Source: a bacterium (GTDB lineage Bacteria; UBP15; UBA6099; JAJRTR01). From it: a stretch of 6,755 bases of DNA. A program made the translations under genes and the position numbers. Shown one piece after another: positions 1 to 6,755 of this stretch. The stretch lies in assembly GCA_024278215.1 (NCBI GenBank), contig JAJRTR010000089.1, forward strand, positions 1-6,755, given 5' to 3'. Under the pieces are notes generated by a model, which worked only from the letters and a program-made list of their open reading frames with translations, was not told where the DNA came from and ran no database searches. The first letter of the stretch is position 1, and each line of letters begins with the position of its first letter.

Positions 1-170
1 AAATTATGTTCGTAGCGAGGTCGAGCGAAATTGTTCAGAGCAAGGCGGAGGTGTAAAATCCTCGCAGGCGTACTTGTAGAGTACGTCGAGGACGATTTCG
101 CGCCGACAACGCAGCTATGGACAATAGCAGCCGACCGCAGTAGAATCATAATTTTGCAATTGGCTCTAAC
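1..170 (+). repeat. Dispersed palindromic repeat, copy A (left end cut by window)
   Basis: This copy is about 89% identical by eye (some 15 substitutions and one gap over about 135 bp) to the reverse complement of 6623-6755. It is also an imperfect inverted repeat over nearly its whole length. The ends AAATTATG (1-8) and CATAATTT (147-154) are perfect complements. 30-41 pairs with 114-125 (10 Watson-Crick pairs, one G-T, one mismatch). 56-60 pairs with 94-98, 61-64 with 87-90, and the core CGTACT (69-74) with AGTACG (80-85) around a 5-base loop. The right end reads ATTTTGCAATTGGCTCTAAC (151-170), after which similarity to the other copies stops. The element probably begins about 12 bases before the window. 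No coding sequence lies in it, so it looks like a non-autonomous MITE-like or REP-like element; that classification is inference. It lies 76 bp downstream of the flavoprotein gene stop and could also act as a transcript-end hairpin. Confidence 0.85.
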
Positions 171-245: not shown

Positions 246-974
246 TTACGCCTTCCGCGCTTCTTTAATCTGTTCGTCCCACCATGAGTTTGCTGTCGCG
301 ATATACATGTCGACCGGGACGAGCGGTTTTTCGAGTTCCGCGGCAGTCGATTCGGAGATTTTCGAGTTTACGGCGACTTCCGCGCCCGCCTTCCTGAGCA
401 GATTCTTATAACCGTCGATAACAGGCTTCAAAGGTGTGTCGACAGCATCGAGAAGCGGGCCGCCGCCCCTGTATATTTCCATGGCGACCTCCGTATCCAG
501 GTTGCGCGCCATCCGGCGTATTATTATCTTCAGCGCCGGAAACTGCGACTGCTCGGGGAAACCGCAGTTCGATATTACGCCGAGCAGCGGGTATTTGTCG
601 TGTTTCTTAACGTGGCGAACTTCCCCGTTTTCGTCCTTTTCAAGGTGTGGGTCGAGTATAGGTATCAGCCTGTCGATGAATGTTTTCGTCTGGCCGGAAA
701 AATTGTCGGCGTATAGTGGAGAAGCAAAAATCGCCACATCGGACGCCATGAACTTTTTGATAAGCTCACCCTGATCGTCCTTATGTATACATATACCGGG
801 TGTCTTTATCAAACAATTGAAACAGCCCAGGCAGGGCTTGATCTTCTTTTTCTGAAGCAGGATATGCTCGACCTGTGCGCCCGCCTCGGCTGCTCCCCTG
901 AGAAATTCATCGGCTATAGTATACGTCCTGCTCTTTTTCATGCGCGGGCTTCCGTTGAACAATGTTATAATCAT
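246..974 (-). CDS. Flavodoxin-fold iron-sulfur flavoprotein / NADPH-dependent FMN reductase family
   Basis: This is a 242-residue cytoplasmic protein of the NADPH-dependent FMN reductase / iron-sulfur flavoprotein (Isf) group, which moves electrons through FMN and, in Isf, a [4Fe-4S] cluster. Seen in the sequence: the N-terminal beta strand followed by NGSPR...SRTYT (7-19), the FMN-phosphate loop; a compact cysteine motif CLGCFNC...C at C48, C51, C54 and C62 (spacing 2-2-7), typical of Isf-type cluster binding; and ASPLYADNFSGQTKTFIDR (84-102), the second flavin-contact segment of this fold. The length fits the family. The ATG at 974-972 is supported by GGAGGT (985-980) five bases upstream. 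A TATAAC box lies about 62 bases upstream and a terminator-like hairpin separates the gene from the lipoprotein gene, so it is probably transcribed alone. The physiological electron donor and acceptor cannot be told from the sequence. The family assignment is firm and the redox partner unknown. Confidence 0.92.
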   Translation of the reverse strand: MIITLFNGSPRMKKSRTYTIADEFLRGAAEAGAQVEHILLQKKKIKPCLGCFNCLIKTPGICIHKDDQGELIKKFMASDVAIFASPLYADNFSGQTKTFIDRLIPILDPHLEKDENGEVRHVKKHDKYPLLGVISNCGFPEQSQFPALKIIIRRMARNLDTEVAMEIYRGGGPLLDAVDTPLKPVIDGYKNLLRKAGAEVAVNSKISESTAAELEKPLVPVDMYIATANSWWDEQIKEARKA

Positions 975-1191: not shown

Positions 1192-1305
1192 TTCAGGACA
1201 AGGCGCAGGTTCCTGCTTCGCCGTATGCGACAACATGTTATCGCAAAAAAAGGATGACTCGACATTCGACCGCAGCCGAATCAGAATTTCACAATTGGCT
1301 CTAAC
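1192..1305 (+). repeat. Degenerate copy of the dispersed repeat, copy C
   Basis: 1267-1305 matches the right end of copies A and D closely: CGACCGCAGCCGAATCAGAA, then TTTCACAATTGGCTCTAAC, differing mainly by CA for TG near the end. Leftward, pieces such as ACAAGGCGCAGG (1198-1209) and GCGACAAC (1227-1234) echo the left arm and middle of the repeat, but the central CGTACT/AGTACG hairpin is missing. It is best read as a decayed or internally deleted copy. Its right end lies 18 bases from the stop of the lipoprotein gene. The left boundary is approximate. Confidence 0.65.
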
Positions 1306-2258: not shown

Positions 2259-3014
2259 CTATATTCCACTCCCGAGCCTCTGCCCGTGTAGTGGCGGCAG
2301 ACCAGCGTCTATGATCTTTTTACGTGTCTTGCTGAAATCATACTCGAACCGGATGAAATTGATACTGTTTCCAATGTCGTCCCACTCGATAAAACATCCT
2401 TTCGATGTTCCATCTCTGGGCTGTCCCACGCTGCCGACATTACAAATCATCGCTTCCCCATGTCGCAGTTTCACAGAGCAGGCGTCGCTGTCGCAGTTTA
2501 TTTGTTTTATTCCGCCGTCCATATCTTTCAGCCAGTAACAAGCCTTGTGGGTGTGGCCGATAAAAGCATAAATCACTCCTCGACTGCTCATGCTGTCGAA
2601 TACTTCACCGGCCTGCACGTCCGTCATAATATAATCATCCTTGTCGTCGGGGCTGCCGTGAACAAGAATAGCTTTCCCGAGCGAAGAGTCCACCCAGAGA
2701 AAATCTCCAAGTGTTCTTAGATAGTTTTTATTATCTTCCGTAAGCACACTGCGTGCCCACAGGATAGAGCGTCTCGCGTCCGGATTGAAATTCACTGGTT
2801 CATATCTTCCAAGCACAACATCGTCGTGGTTGCCCGTTACGGAAGGTATCTCTCTTTCTCTCATTATTTCTACACAACGGTTGGGATCGGCCCCATATCC
2901 TACTGTGTCGCCAAGGTTGAATATCCTGTCGTATTCCATCTCGTCGGCTATTTTTAGAAAAGCCTCGAAAGCTTCCAGATTTGCGTGTACGTCTGAAAAA
3001 ATGATGATCTTCAT
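2259..3014 (-). CDS. Calcineurin-like metallophosphoesterase (YfcE/Metallophos_2 type)
   Basis: A 251-residue soluble two-metal phosphoesterase. All family motifs are visible in order: DVH (D8, H10) in SDVHANLEA; GDTVGYG with D36; GNHD (61-64, N62 and H63); HGSP with H119; GHTH (153-156, H154 and H156); and the closing NVGSVGQPRDG (192-202) typical of the YfcE/MJ0936-like COG0639-type proteins. A complete metal site predicts an active enzyme. Related proteins hydrolyse phosphodiesters or nucleotides, but the substrate cannot be inferred here. The motif SDVHAN directly after MKIIIF makes the ATG at 3014 the only sensible start, although the Shine-Dalgarno is weak (AGAGAA, AAGAA). It lies 112 bp downstream of the ppiase-TPR gene on the same strand and may be read with it, subject to a weak terminator candidate in the gap. 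The family is firm, the role unknown. Confidence 0.94.
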   Translation of the reverse strand: MKIIIFSDVHANLEAFEAFLKIADEMEYDRIFNLGDTVGYGADPNRCVEIMREREIPSVTGNHDDVVLGRYEPVNFNPDARRSILWARSVLTEDNKNYLRTLGDFLWVDSSLGKAILVHGSPDDKDDYIMTDVQAGEVFDSMSSRGVIYAFIGHTHKACYWLKDMDGGIKQINCDSDACSVKLRHGEAMICNVGSVGQPRDGTSKGCFIEWDDIGNSINFIRFEYDFSKTRKKIIDAGLPPLHGQRLGSGI

Positions 3015-3126: not shown

Positions 3127-4725
3127 CTATTGCTGCATCTCGATCATGCTCTCGTCCGGCAGTCCGATGTTTTCTCTGACGGAGTCCGGGCCCTTGTCGG
3201 TCAGGCCGCTGGGCATCTTGTATTCAGGTGCCTTGAAAATACCGCCGGGCATCTGTGGTCCGCCGGAGCCTTTCAGCAACTCGAAGGCATGAACCGCCCT
3301 GTCCTGTTCTTCGTTCGCTTCCTCGACCAGCCCGAGTTTCGAATAAATCTGGCCGAGTGTCTGGTGGAGATTATAGTCGAGTTTGGAGAGGTCAGACGCT
3401 TTTCTGAACTCCGCAAGACCTTTCTCATGCTCGCCCACTTCCATATACGCGCGGCCCATAGCAAAGAAAAGTTTCGGGTCTGTCGGTGCCTCTTCCGTCG
3501 CCATGCGCAATTCCCTCAGCGCTTCCGAATACCTTTTCTGCCTCGCGTATATCATCGAGATATCTATATGGTAATACGGTGCGCCCTCTTTATCTGTTTT
3601 TATGGCTTCCCTGTATGCCTTTACCGCCTCATCCATTCTGCCCATATTCCTGAGTTTGTTTGCCTTGATCACCGGCTGATATATTTTTATATCATCATTC
3701 TCCTCGAGTTTCCTGAGTCGCTGATAGAACCAGCCTACAAAGTCCGCCTTCTGTTTCCTTATGATTACTGCTTTCTTCGCGACTTTTCTGAAGTTGCGGA
3801 ATCTTGCGCCGTCCGGGTCCAGCACATTAATACATTTTATTATGTGCAGTCCCTGGCTTGTAGCAAACGGCTCTGATATTTCGCCCGGCTGCATTCTTTT
3901 AGCAATATCCCAGAAAAGCGGTACAACCGATCTCATTGTTATCCAGCCGATATAGCCGCCTTCCGCGCCGTATGCTTCCTGCGAATATTTCTTTGCCAAT
4001 TTAGCAAAATCAGCGCCTTGCTTCAACTGCTCATACACCTTCCATGCCTTATTATACTGTTTCTTGTTGGCATAATTTATATCACTTCCCGAAGATTGGC
4101 TCTCATTATAGATGAAAAAAATCTGCCTCAACTCGACACGTGGCAGATTCGCCTCGACCTCTACGTCCGATACGGTATAGTGTTCTTCAGGGAAAAGATG
4201 CTTTGCCAGCTTGTCTTCATATATTTCGTATTTAAGATATTCGAGAAATTCCTCTTCCTGTCTGAACCCGAGTGTGCTCCACAGGTGCGAATACATCGCT
4301 TCGGCGTCAGGCACAGTGCTTGTGGGGGCGGCATCCTTCTTCATATATTTCGCCTGTTTCTCAAGGTATAAGATAATCCCGCTCTTCTTCTTCATTATAT
4401 CCTCGGCGGTGACCACAACACCTTCTTCACCTGCACTGATAGCCAGTATCTTGTCGAAGAGCATACCTCTGAATACCGACAGCATTACACCTTCCTTGTC
4501 TGCTGAAGACAGTCTGCCGGTGACCGCTATCAACCTTGTCAGTCGCCTGTTCACCGCCGCCGTGAACTCGAACGCTGTTATCTGCCTGCCTTTGACTTCA
4601 GCAATGATATTCGGGGTTCTGACAACATCCTCCGATCCCCAGTACTTCGCGAAAATCGCAAAACCAGCAACCAGTACAAGCAGTCCCAACACCTGGAACC
4701 ATCGTTTTTTCAATACATCTACCAT
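3127..4725 (-). CDS. Membrane-anchored parvulin-type peptidyl-prolyl isomerase with TPR repeats (SurA/PpiC-like)
   Basis: 533 codons from the first ATG (4728). The second ATG (4725) is preferred because GGAG (4734-4731) is five bases from it but only two from the first. Numbering here is from the first. Residues 10-28 are one hydrophobic segment after KKR: an uncleaved anchor placing the rest in the periplasm. 38-190 is a SurA-N-like helical chaperone region (AEVKGRQITAFEF strand, then helices). 196-302 is a parvulin domain: LRQIFF, FAKLAKKYSQ, GGYIGW, PGEISEPF and GLHIIK (H295). The usual first histidine of the RHIL motif is Q202 here. 349-483 holds four TPR-like repeats of 34-35 residues (starting near 349, 383, 418 and 452; NMGRMDEAVKAYREAI is typical). 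The tail 487-533 is Gly/Pro-rich. Its likely role is folding or assembly of envelope proteins, with the TPR part as partner-binding module. The metallophosphoesterase gene follows. Confidence 0.92.
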   Translation of the reverse strand: MVDVLKKRWFQVLGLLVLVAGFAIFAKYWGSEDVVRTPNIIAEVKGRQITAFEFTAAVNRRLTRLIAVTGRLSSADKEGVMLSVFRGMLFDKILAISAGEEGVVVTAEDIMKKKSGIILYLEKQAKYMKKDAAPTSTVPDAEAMYSHLWSTLGFRQEEEFLEYLKYEIYEDKLAKHLFPEEHYTVSDVEVEANLPRVELRQIFFIYNESQSSGSDINYANKKQYNKAWKVYEQLKQGADFAKLAKKYSQEAYGAEGGYIGWITMRSVVPLFWDIAKRMQPGEISEPFATSQGLHIIKCINVLDPDGARFRNFRKVAKKAVIIRKQKADFVGWFYQRLRKLEENDDIKIYQPVIKANKLRNMGRMDEAVKAYREAIKTDKEGAPYYHIDISMIYARQKRYSEALRELRMATEEAPTDPKLFFAMGRAYMEVGEHEKGLAEFRKASDLSKLDYNLHQTLGQIYSKLGLVEEANEEQDRAVHAFELLKGSGGPQMPGGIFKAPEYKMPSGLTDKGPDSVRENIGLPDESMIEMQQ

Positions 4726-4730
4726 CATGT

Positions 4731-4764: not shown

Positions 4765-4878
4765 ACACACTCACTGTTTTTATGCTACATAACGACTTTA
4801 TCCGCATTATTCTCTGCCTTATCATCATCATCCAAGCAGATCATTCCTGCCTGGTTTTATAATATGAACTTTTATGAT

Positions 4879-4898
4879 ATTTTGCAATCGGCTCTTAA
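4879..4898 (+). repeat. Solo end fragment of the dispersed repeat, fragment E
   Basis: ATTTTGCAATCGGCTCT (4879-4895) matches the right end of copy A (ATTTTGCAATTGGCTCT) at 16 of 17 bases. No left arm is recognisable upstream. It lies inside the 5' extension of the EEP reading frame and argues that this extension is not translated. Confidence 0.55.
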
Positions 4899-4913
4899 GG
4901 ATGTTCTGTTTTT

Positions 4914-4941
4914 TTGCCGATGTCCTTTCATTTGTTATAAT
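4914..4941 (+). promoter_or_regulatory. Candidate extended -10 promoter of the EEP gene
   Basis: TTGCCG (4914-4919), a 16-base spacer, then TGT-TATAAT (4933-4941): a perfect -10 with the TG extension. Transcription would start near 4948, leaving a leader of only about 7-13 bases before ATG 4955 or 4961. Neither ATG has a Shine-Dalgarno sequence, so a near-leaderless message is possible. The alternative is that the gene starts upstream and this match lies by chance in AT-rich coding sequence. Confidence 0.45.
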
Positions 4942-4954
4942 ACATATTTTAGTT

Positions 4955-5974
4955 ATGACAATGCCGATAATATACATCATCTTTTCTTTGTCAGTTGTCG
5001 TTGCGGTACTCTTCATTTACGTTTACAGACATGTGGCCTGTGAACTGTCGGTTTTTAATAATAGAATCAAACCGCTCGAGCTCAAACTGCTTACAGCGAA
5101 TATCGGCAATGTGAATATTCGAAGAGCCGTGCACCGCTTCAAACTCAGCGACGATGAAACAGTGGTCTTAAAACAGAATATAGAAAAACTGTCGCCGGAT
5201 ATAATATTCCTGCAGGAACTCGCGTCTGAAAAACAGGTCGGGATGCTTGTCGACCATGATCACTATTTGACTCACTATTCTTTCGACTGTTGCATTGCGG
5301 TCAGAAAAGGTGTATTCAGCAGGTTGATCAATGTCGAGACCGACCCCGGGTCCGACGGTTATATGCACTGCCGTGCTCTTGTCGCCGAAAGAGGATACGA
5401 GCTGTCTCTTCTGAATGTTCATACAACTAGCTTCTTCAGTGATCCCAGCTTTAATAAATGCGGTGAACAGATAAAAAATATGTTCAACTTAATACGCAAA
5501 GAGTGCGACAAAAGCAGGAGAATCATTGTTGCCGGCGATTTCAATTTCGATCCTTACCGGTTCGATAGATTTTCTGAAAAAGTTGCTGGAACTGAAAAAC
5601 AATCGGAACTCAAGTCGCTGCTCGAAGGATTATTGTATTCGAAGCTTAAGGTGCTGCTCGAAGGATGGAATAAAGAATTCAGGGAACTGCACCCGGGCGG
5701 ACTGCGTGTTGTCAGCACCGAAAAGCCCACATGGTGTCTGGGATATAAATTCTCGCTTGATCACGTGATGACAAATCTCAAAACACGCAACTGCTCTGTG
5801 CTCGACTCTGAAGACAACCGCATTGATATTGACCACGAATATGAACTGGTGTCTATGCCTGAGCGGTTTATGGACCACCGCGCTGTCTCCGCGGCATTAC
5901 TCCTTGATTTCGATCCCGATACATTAATTACATTGAAGAAAAAGATACTTTATATGCTTGCGAAGAGACATTGA
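4955..5974 (+). CDS. Membrane-anchored endonuclease/exonuclease/phosphatase (EEP) family protein
   Basis: 339 residues from ATG 4955; the frame is open back to ATG 4874 (366 residues, numbering used here). The downstream start is preferred because 4879-4895 is a repeat fragment and a strong promoter match lies at 4914-4941. ATG 4961 is equally possible, and no start has a good ribosome site. Residues 31-51 form one hydrophobic anchor. The EEP domain follows with all catalytic motifs: TANI (N76), IIFLQE (E115), LLNVHTT (H183), VAGDFNFD (D222, N224), SLDHV (D296, H297) and the final MDHRAVSA (D334, H335). This Mg-dependent fold covers DNases, sphingomyelinases and phosphatases, and the substrate here is undetermined. 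Residues 247-258 and 259-270 (LKSLLEG / LKVLLEG) are a 12-residue tandem duplication. The gene is divergent from ppiase-TPR and convergent with cvpA. The C terminus is a basic helix (KKKILYMLAKRH). Confidence 0.85.
   Translation: MTMPIIYIIFSLSVVVAVLFIYVYRHVACELSVFNNRIKPLELKLLTANIGNVNIRRAVHRFKLSDDETVVLKQNIEKLSPDIIFLQELASEKQVGMLVDHDHYLTHYSFDCCIAVRKGVFSRLINVETDPGSDGYMHCRALVAERGYELSLLNVHTTSFFSDPSFNKCGEQIKNMFNLIRKECDKSRRIIVAGDFNFDPYRFDRFSEKVAGTEKQSELKSLLEGLLYSKLKVLLEGWNKEFRELHPGGLRVVSTEKPTWCLGYKFSLDHVMTNLKTRNCSVLDSEDNRIDIDHEYELVSMPERFMDHRAVSAALLLDFDPDTLITLKKKILYMLAKRH
5611..5666 (+). repeat. 36-bp tandem duplication within the EEP gene
   Basis: GCTGCTCGAAGGAT occurs at 5617-5630 and 5653-5666, exactly 36 bases apart. 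The 22-base blocks around them differ at only three positions, and they translate to LKSLLEG and LKVLLEG. Because the period is a multiple of three the frame is kept. Confidence 0.7.
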
Positions 5975-6608: not shown

Positions 6609-6635
6609 TCTATAGTGATATCGAGCCAATTGCAA
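6609..6635 (-). promoter_or_regulatory. Possible cvpA promoter using the repeat end as -35
   Basis: On the minus strand TTGCAA (6635-6630, the end of repeat copy D), a 15-base spacer, then TATAGA (6614-6609). Both hexamers are imperfect and the spacer is short, so this is only a suggestion that the repeat end supplies a -35-like element about 50 bases upstream of the start codon. Confidence 0.2.
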
Positions 6636-6755
6636 AATTCTGATTCGGCTGCGGTCGGCTGCAATTGTACATAGCTGCGTTGTCGGCACAAAATCATCCT
6701 CAACGTACTCGGCGAGTACGCCTGCGGGGATTTTGCACCTCCGCCTTGCTTCTGA
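6623..6755 (-). repeat. Dispersed palindromic repeat, copy D (cut by window end)
   Basis: The reverse complement aligns to 35-169 (copy A) with about 15 substitutions and one gap by eye. Its core is a better hairpin than in copy A: CGTACTCG (6704-6711), one base, CGAGTACG (6713-6720), a perfect 8-bp palindrome. The flanks CAAAATC and GATTTTG also pair across it. The terminal sequence ATTTTGCAATTGGCTC (6638-6623, minus strand) ends 64 bases upstream of the cvpA start. The other end lies outside the window. It is inverted relative to copy A, and no transposase is associated. Confidence 0.85.

Follow-up and report, generated by a model that had tools for sequence, protein, structure and literature searches.

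The window, which is the whole 6,755 bp stretch of DNA analyzed here, makes up all of contig C60, one of 207 in a draft genome of 4.55 Mb, and it both begins and finishes within copies of one repeat. The genes between these copies include those for an FMN reductase (246-974, minus strand), a metallophosphoesterase (2259-3014, minus strand), a SurA/PPIase protein with TPR repeats (3127-4728, minus strand) and an Exo_endo_phos-like protein (4874-5974, plus strand). The copy at the left end, copy A (1-166, plus strand), corresponds to nhmmer model positions 13-178 of a 178-bp palindromic element; the contig start has removed its first 12 bases, which read GAGCCAATTGCA in intact copies. Its right terminal inverted repeat, AATTTTGCAATTGGCTC, matches the 20-base end pattern and occupies positions 150-166 (plus strand). 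It is followed at 167-170 by TAAC, presumably the right-hand 4-bp target duplication, whose left-hand partner lies beyond the contig. Copy D (6623-6755, minus strand; nhmmer model positions 48-178) comprises the right part of the element, is cut by the contig end, and matches copy A at 89% across 128 nt. Two remnants lie in between. One is a decayed partial copy at 1263-1301 (plus strand; nhmmer model positions 140-178, E 4e-5), which retains only the right arm and right terminal repeat and is 94% complementary to 6623-6657; the other is a solitary right terminal repeat (ATTTTGCAATCGGCTCT) at 4879-4895 (plus strand; repeat family D2, 94% identity).

Intact copies elsewhere in the genome show that the complete unit is a 178-bp imperfect palindrome devoid of coding content, GAGCCAATTGCAAAATT ... 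AATTTTGCAATTGGCTC, with perfect terminal inverted repeats of 17 bp. These copies start with GAGCCAATTGCAAAATTATGTTCG and finish with ATAATTTTGCAATTGGCTC, and their left end reads GAGCCAATTGCA|AAATTATG. A preliminary description of the window had predicted, from pairing, the bases just left of position 1. As the window is a whole contig, its own left flank is off the contig and the prediction was checked on intact copies elsewhere, where it proved correct for the family. The same description viewed copies A and D as palindromes folding back from a central stem, and this is borne out: both are palindromic, the central stem is CGTAC-TTGTAGA-GTACG in copy A and a longer GTACTC-GCC-GAGTAC in copy D, and the 178-nt consensus folds into a single hairpin over its entire length (-80.8 kcal/mol). 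The DNA fold of copy A had a z-score of -3.06 despite the missing 5′ end, and that of the 133-nt piece of copy D a z-score of -1.83.

The 20-base end pattern had 312 matches genome-wide at two mismatches or fewer, compared with none for the reversed-pattern control. Further copies of the dispersed family proposed in the preliminary description are therefore abundant. A first look with copy A gave 472 candidates in its own genome, and at least 47 matches to this copy were present among the matches listed. The 1.9 Mb of the genome that was read contained 189 copies if fragments are counted, of which 102 were full length, and extrapolation from contigs picked regardless of hits gives ∼340 copies and fragments per genome. 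According to a crude gene call based on simple open reading frames, 89 of 96 copies (∼93%) are intergenic. The types of gap that hold copies resemble the genome background, and 34 of the 51 copies located between codirectional genes are in the sense orientation (34:17, p about 0.02). A blastn search of plasmids with copy A gave no match.

An exact 4-bp direct repeat flanks 58 of the 98 full copies for which both flanks are available, against 1.7% of random positions. When one mismatch was allowed this number rose to 78, whereas duplications of five to nine bp were near zero among the same 98 copies. The target is AT-rich and symmetric (A-N-N-C-[4 bp]-G-N-N-T), and internal deletion derivatives of 38-63 bp retain both the ends and the 4-bp duplication. 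Thus, the element has the properties by which prokaryotic MITEs are recognized, i.e. terminal repeats and a target duplication of fixed length in a short, non-coding, multicopy and mostly intergenic unit. These data support the suggestion that it is MITE-like, and the target-site duplications that the preliminary description proposed to look for are present: the element is a high-copy non-autonomous DNA transposon that inserted with a 4-bp duplication. Chunjie, Correia/NEMIS, RUP and MITEAba12 likewise combine terminal inverted repeats, a target duplication, a length below 200 bp and mobilization in trans. The present element differs from them (from Chunjie as judged by its description) in that its interior is a structured core common to MITEs of other ends and other phyla. 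The combination of a fixed short duplication with terminal repeats excludes a REP/RAYT origin and suggests that the element is moved in trans by a transposase of the DDE type. Such a transposase would recognize GAGCCAATTGCAAAATT and would cut symmetric AT-rich targets with a 4-bp stagger.

Two other origins were considered for the repeats themselves. The first is that they were produced by mis-assembly at contig ends. In line with this, 32 of 133 contig ends examined, including both ends of the window, fall within copies; yet 98 full-length copies are internal, with flanks that differ from copy to copy and target duplications of their own, and we give this explanation practically no credence. 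The second, in line with the REP-like reading offered in the preliminary description, is that a Y1 (HUH) transposase acts on the ends while they are folded into hairpins of single-stranded DNA. REP/BIME sequences moved by RAYT are palindromic and extragenic, as the element is, and reach high copy numbers, and the genome has six Y1_Tnp (RAYT-type) profile matches (C56:24161, C6:35766, C115:55606, C201:4222, C59:2390 and C112:80568). REP/RAYT elements, however, make no target duplication, are far shorter and depend on HUH chemistry. The exact 4-bp duplications at most copies, the 17-bp perfect terminal repeats and the length of 178 bp contradict the REP-like reading, and none of the six Y1 genes could be linked to copies; we consider it very improbable. 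These Y1 genes may be the source of other REP-like repeats in this genome.

The preliminary description also called for a search for a parent transposase or a RAYT gene. Genes of the latter type are present, as just described, though no link to the element was seen, and in the part of the genome that was read no partner transposase bearing the element ends was found among matches to PF01609 (three), PF05598 (DUF772; none), rve (none) and Y1 (six). None of the three PF01609 genes has element ends nearby, and the 1.9 Mb read contained no multi-copy transposase genes. Long-spaced terminal repeats were also considered as candidate autonomous elements, but their interiors turned out to be ordinary genes or neighboring broken copies. 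At C186:67714-69039 and C186:23820-27300, a right half and a left half of the element enclose genes (including one radical-SAM-like open reading frame), as a split copy would; no target duplication was apparent there.

The interior of copy A contains a structured core (28-128, plus strand) that is common to several phyla. It scored 78.3 bits (E 4e-20) with covariance model R1, which was built from 23 elements and has the consensus of this family among its training rows; copy D scored 52.8 bits at 6754-6669. In copy A the apical hairpin, AGGCGTAC - TTGTAGA - GTACGTCGAG, lies at 66-90 (plus strand). According to the A1 and A2 alignments, AAGGC (42-46, plus strand) and AACGCAG (108-114, plus strand) form the left and right sides, respectively, of the middle internal loop. 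The core pattern is strand-specific and reads AAGGC - about 19 nt - AGGCGTAC-loop-GTACGTCGAG - about 17 nt - AACGCAG. The window family falls into a proposed ERIC-like core superfamily, having the AAGGC/AACGCAG internal loop on the outside and an NA/GA mismatch below the apical stem, on the same strand and at fixed spacing.

Scanning named genomes for the apex, AGGCGTAC-N3-9-GTACGTCGAG, gave at least 114 stretches, from Deltaproteobacteria, Nitrospira, Clostridia, Planctomycetota, Spirochaetia, Acidobacteriota, Rokubacteria and other groups; it is on these apex-scan loci that the breadth by taxon name rests. By our estimate roughly 50 hits to the apex pattern are expected by chance in 257 Gb, so the pattern by itself proves little and the flanks constitute the test. 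The flanks of most apex loci are self-complementary well above shuffled flanks. Moreover, AAGGC upstream and AACG-AG downstream, both of which are outside the search pattern, co-occur in 11 of 72 loci, where 0.1 would be expected, and in 25 elements these motifs are located at nearly fixed distances from the apex (18-21 nt and 16-19 nt). The core is also carried by the isolate genomes of Geobacter sp. AOG1 and Acanthopleuribacter pedis, and contamination of metagenome bins is therefore not the explanation. A stricter apex pattern was absent from viral contigs, and neither the window nor 18 cross-phylum loci had a match in Rfam 15 at the gathering cut-off. In the open-access literature we found no paper on this core, including under bacterial palindromic repeats. 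A variant from Clostridia keeps the apex and is devoid of the AAGGC/AACGCAG loop (loci L209-L213, L219, L225, L235, L250, L260, L265 and L269), and some of these variants have an additional hairpin in the 5′ arm. Locus L218 (6139-6549), from a Deltaproteobacteria bin, contains four core elements in tandem at a spacing of 126-135 bp.

In the 23-row alignment, 90.5% of cells were paired, against 31-39% when the partners were slid, and changes on both sides of a pair numbered 107 compared with 41 in shuffled alignments (a value reached in 0 of 500). Model R1 recovered 91 copies from 86 sources. In the resulting 91-row alignment 83.4% of cells were paired (34-38% when slid), both-side changes were present at 29 of 31 pairs, and pairing reached 99.2% of cells in the apical hairpin, where T-A/C-G and G-C/A-T exchanges occur in other families. 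At E≤1e-5, a rough value because the calibration was shortened, R1 had matches in 35 of 290 genomes sampled across the bacterial domain and in 25 of 253 of good quality, many of them with multiple copies. Stems vary freely across 45 rows while the unpaired loop bases A21, G24, A49, G83, A86, A108 and G110 are nearly invariant; these rows were obtained through the model and not by the exact apex, and as the model prefers those bases the loop bias is partly built in. The invariance of the apex is likewise partly imposed, since the exact apex served to pick the seeds, from which the models behind the later hits were then derived. Constant unpaired loop bases amid compensating stems are the usual mark of a recognized RNA or single-stranded DNA motif. 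Long palindromes gain some model score from pairing alone, an effect against which the strand bias argues. Together these results show that the internal 100 nt belong to a hairpin core that is strand-specific, has mismatched internal loops that are conserved, and is present across bacterial phyla.

Covariation across families thus supports the structured element envisaged in the preliminary description, and none of the three results named there as refuting came about. The compensatory changes that the description proposed to look for across copies were present between families and not within the genome itself, where the number of double changes (15+8) did not exceed the 24 expected. Because the copies in this genome decay without such an excess, selection does not appear to operate copy by copy, and we infer that selection on the fold acts in the lineages that spread rather than on each resident copy.

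The ends differ from family to family. In genome G005, which belongs to the same order and another family, a palindromic repeat of 179 bp has a core that is 72-74% identical to that of the window family, but it has its own terminal repeat (GAGGCTCTAACAAAA) and, in place of the 4-bp duplication, TTA (TNA-like) on both sides. Each family in eight other genomes also has its own terminal repeats, for example GCCCGCATTTCTCACC, GCCTGGATTATTCATGA, ACTGCTCAGGTTGC, CGGCTGTTCAAAAA and ATACTAAGTTGCATTC, and several of these families have TA at one or both flanks; outside the genome of the window, ends and targets were read from two to five copies per family. TA flanks are expected of IS630/Tc1-like target choice. 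Since the interior is common and both ends and targets differ, different transposases are presumably involved, and the core would have a history of its own, as a unit that became joined to the terminal repeats of several transposase families.

The known system closest to this arrangement is ERIC, also named IRU or RU-1. This element of about 127 bp is likewise a long imperfect palindrome that is extragenic, present in high copy number and devoid of a transposase gene. Known since about 1990, it serves worldwide as a tool for typing strains, and we know of no established origin for it. The two elements agree in the order, strand and spacing of their motifs, which in ERIC read AAGGC - 19 nt - AGG.GCTTAC / GTAAGTGA - about 18 nt - AACGCA. 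The apex differs (GCTTAC in ERIC, GCGTAC in the window family), and ERIC ends are flanked by TA whereas those of the window family are GAGCC...GGCTC with a 4-bp duplication; on these grounds the window family is not ERIC proper. The ERIC consensus used was matched in 5,376 of 5,426 E. coli genomes. R1 detected nothing in ERIC. A second model, R2, was built from 91 more varied copies with ERIC left out. When it was applied to ten ERIC loci from Escherichia, Klebsiella, Kosakonia, Rahnella, Salmonella and Vibrio, ERIC was the top match on the right strand in all ten (15.3-25.7 bits). Seven scored above 20 bits, and the two weakest (15.3 and 16.0) were barely above the background of 14.9 bits, the best score in 50 kb of K-12; this background hit also scored 13.1 bits on the opposite strand, as a plain palindrome would. 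In Rfam 15, ERIC itself matched V_AS5 below the cut-off of that family. We conclude from these sequence comparisons that ERIC is probably a member of the core class. Reviews treat ERIC as restricted to Enterobacteriaceae and Vibrionaceae (PMC10969869, PMC2229807); in Yersinia it is reported to destabilize mRNA in an orientation-dependent manner, its transposase being not known (PMC2229807).

Our preferred reading, to which we assign a probability of about 0.8, is that the repeat is a non-autonomous MITE whose strand-specific, cross-phylum core was joined to the ends of several transposase families. The competing view of the core is that unrelated palindromes converged on, or were selected by us for, a shared 18-base apex. 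The choice of seeds by an exact pattern and the number of chance hits expected in 257 Gb are in agreement with this, but it does not account for the joint occurrence of the two flanking motifs, for their fixed spacing or for the fact that R1 gave another 45 copies in which the apex varies and the loop bases do not; we judge it unlikely. A regulatory RNA or terminator selected by the host, its copies being kept for transcript effects on neighboring genes as reported for Yersinia ERIC (PMC2229807), would agree with the intergenic location of most copies and with the excess of sense orientation. It is at odds with gap types that are like the genome background, with the decay of copies lacking compensatory changes and with the widely varied terminal repeats, which indicate selfish spread, and we hold it to be about equally unlikely.

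How a MITE with such a core might benefit from its fold can be proposed only with low certainty. A widespread cellular factor might bind the folded single strand, either as a transcript or as extruded DNA, and thereby promote spread of the element or protect it. The 34:17 excess of sense orientation leans slightly to RNA as the acting form. More tentatively still, and in our estimate rather short of even odds, the core would be recognized in folded form by a common bacterial factor and would have spread domain-wide through repeated joining to different transposase ends, with ERIC as a branch. Hairpins with a common core suggest a single, very widespread mobile class that has gone unrecognized, and if the core of ERIC is the same, ERIC would be one branch of a class that extends over the domain. 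If this is true, two questions become testable: the identity of whatever recognizes the fold, and the way in which different transposases come to carry a single interior.

Finally, this genome has another dispersed hairpin repeat, a tiny one that reads AACCCGGATTTCTTTGTGAGAAATCCGGGTT or a variant of it; it lies in the window at 1119-1145 and also on contigs C160, C109, C22, C44 and C53. In 40 of 45 strand-wise matches, a TA lies no more than 4 nt upstream. Several of the MITE copies contain this repeat at the same TA (GCAGC-TA-TGG). Its ends are similar to those in the G277 family, and it may be a mini-MITE that targets TA. Another short repeat, about GTCAACAAAGAAAAGATG, is present at the junctions of broken copies at C22:7368, C67:19543 and C112:22786.
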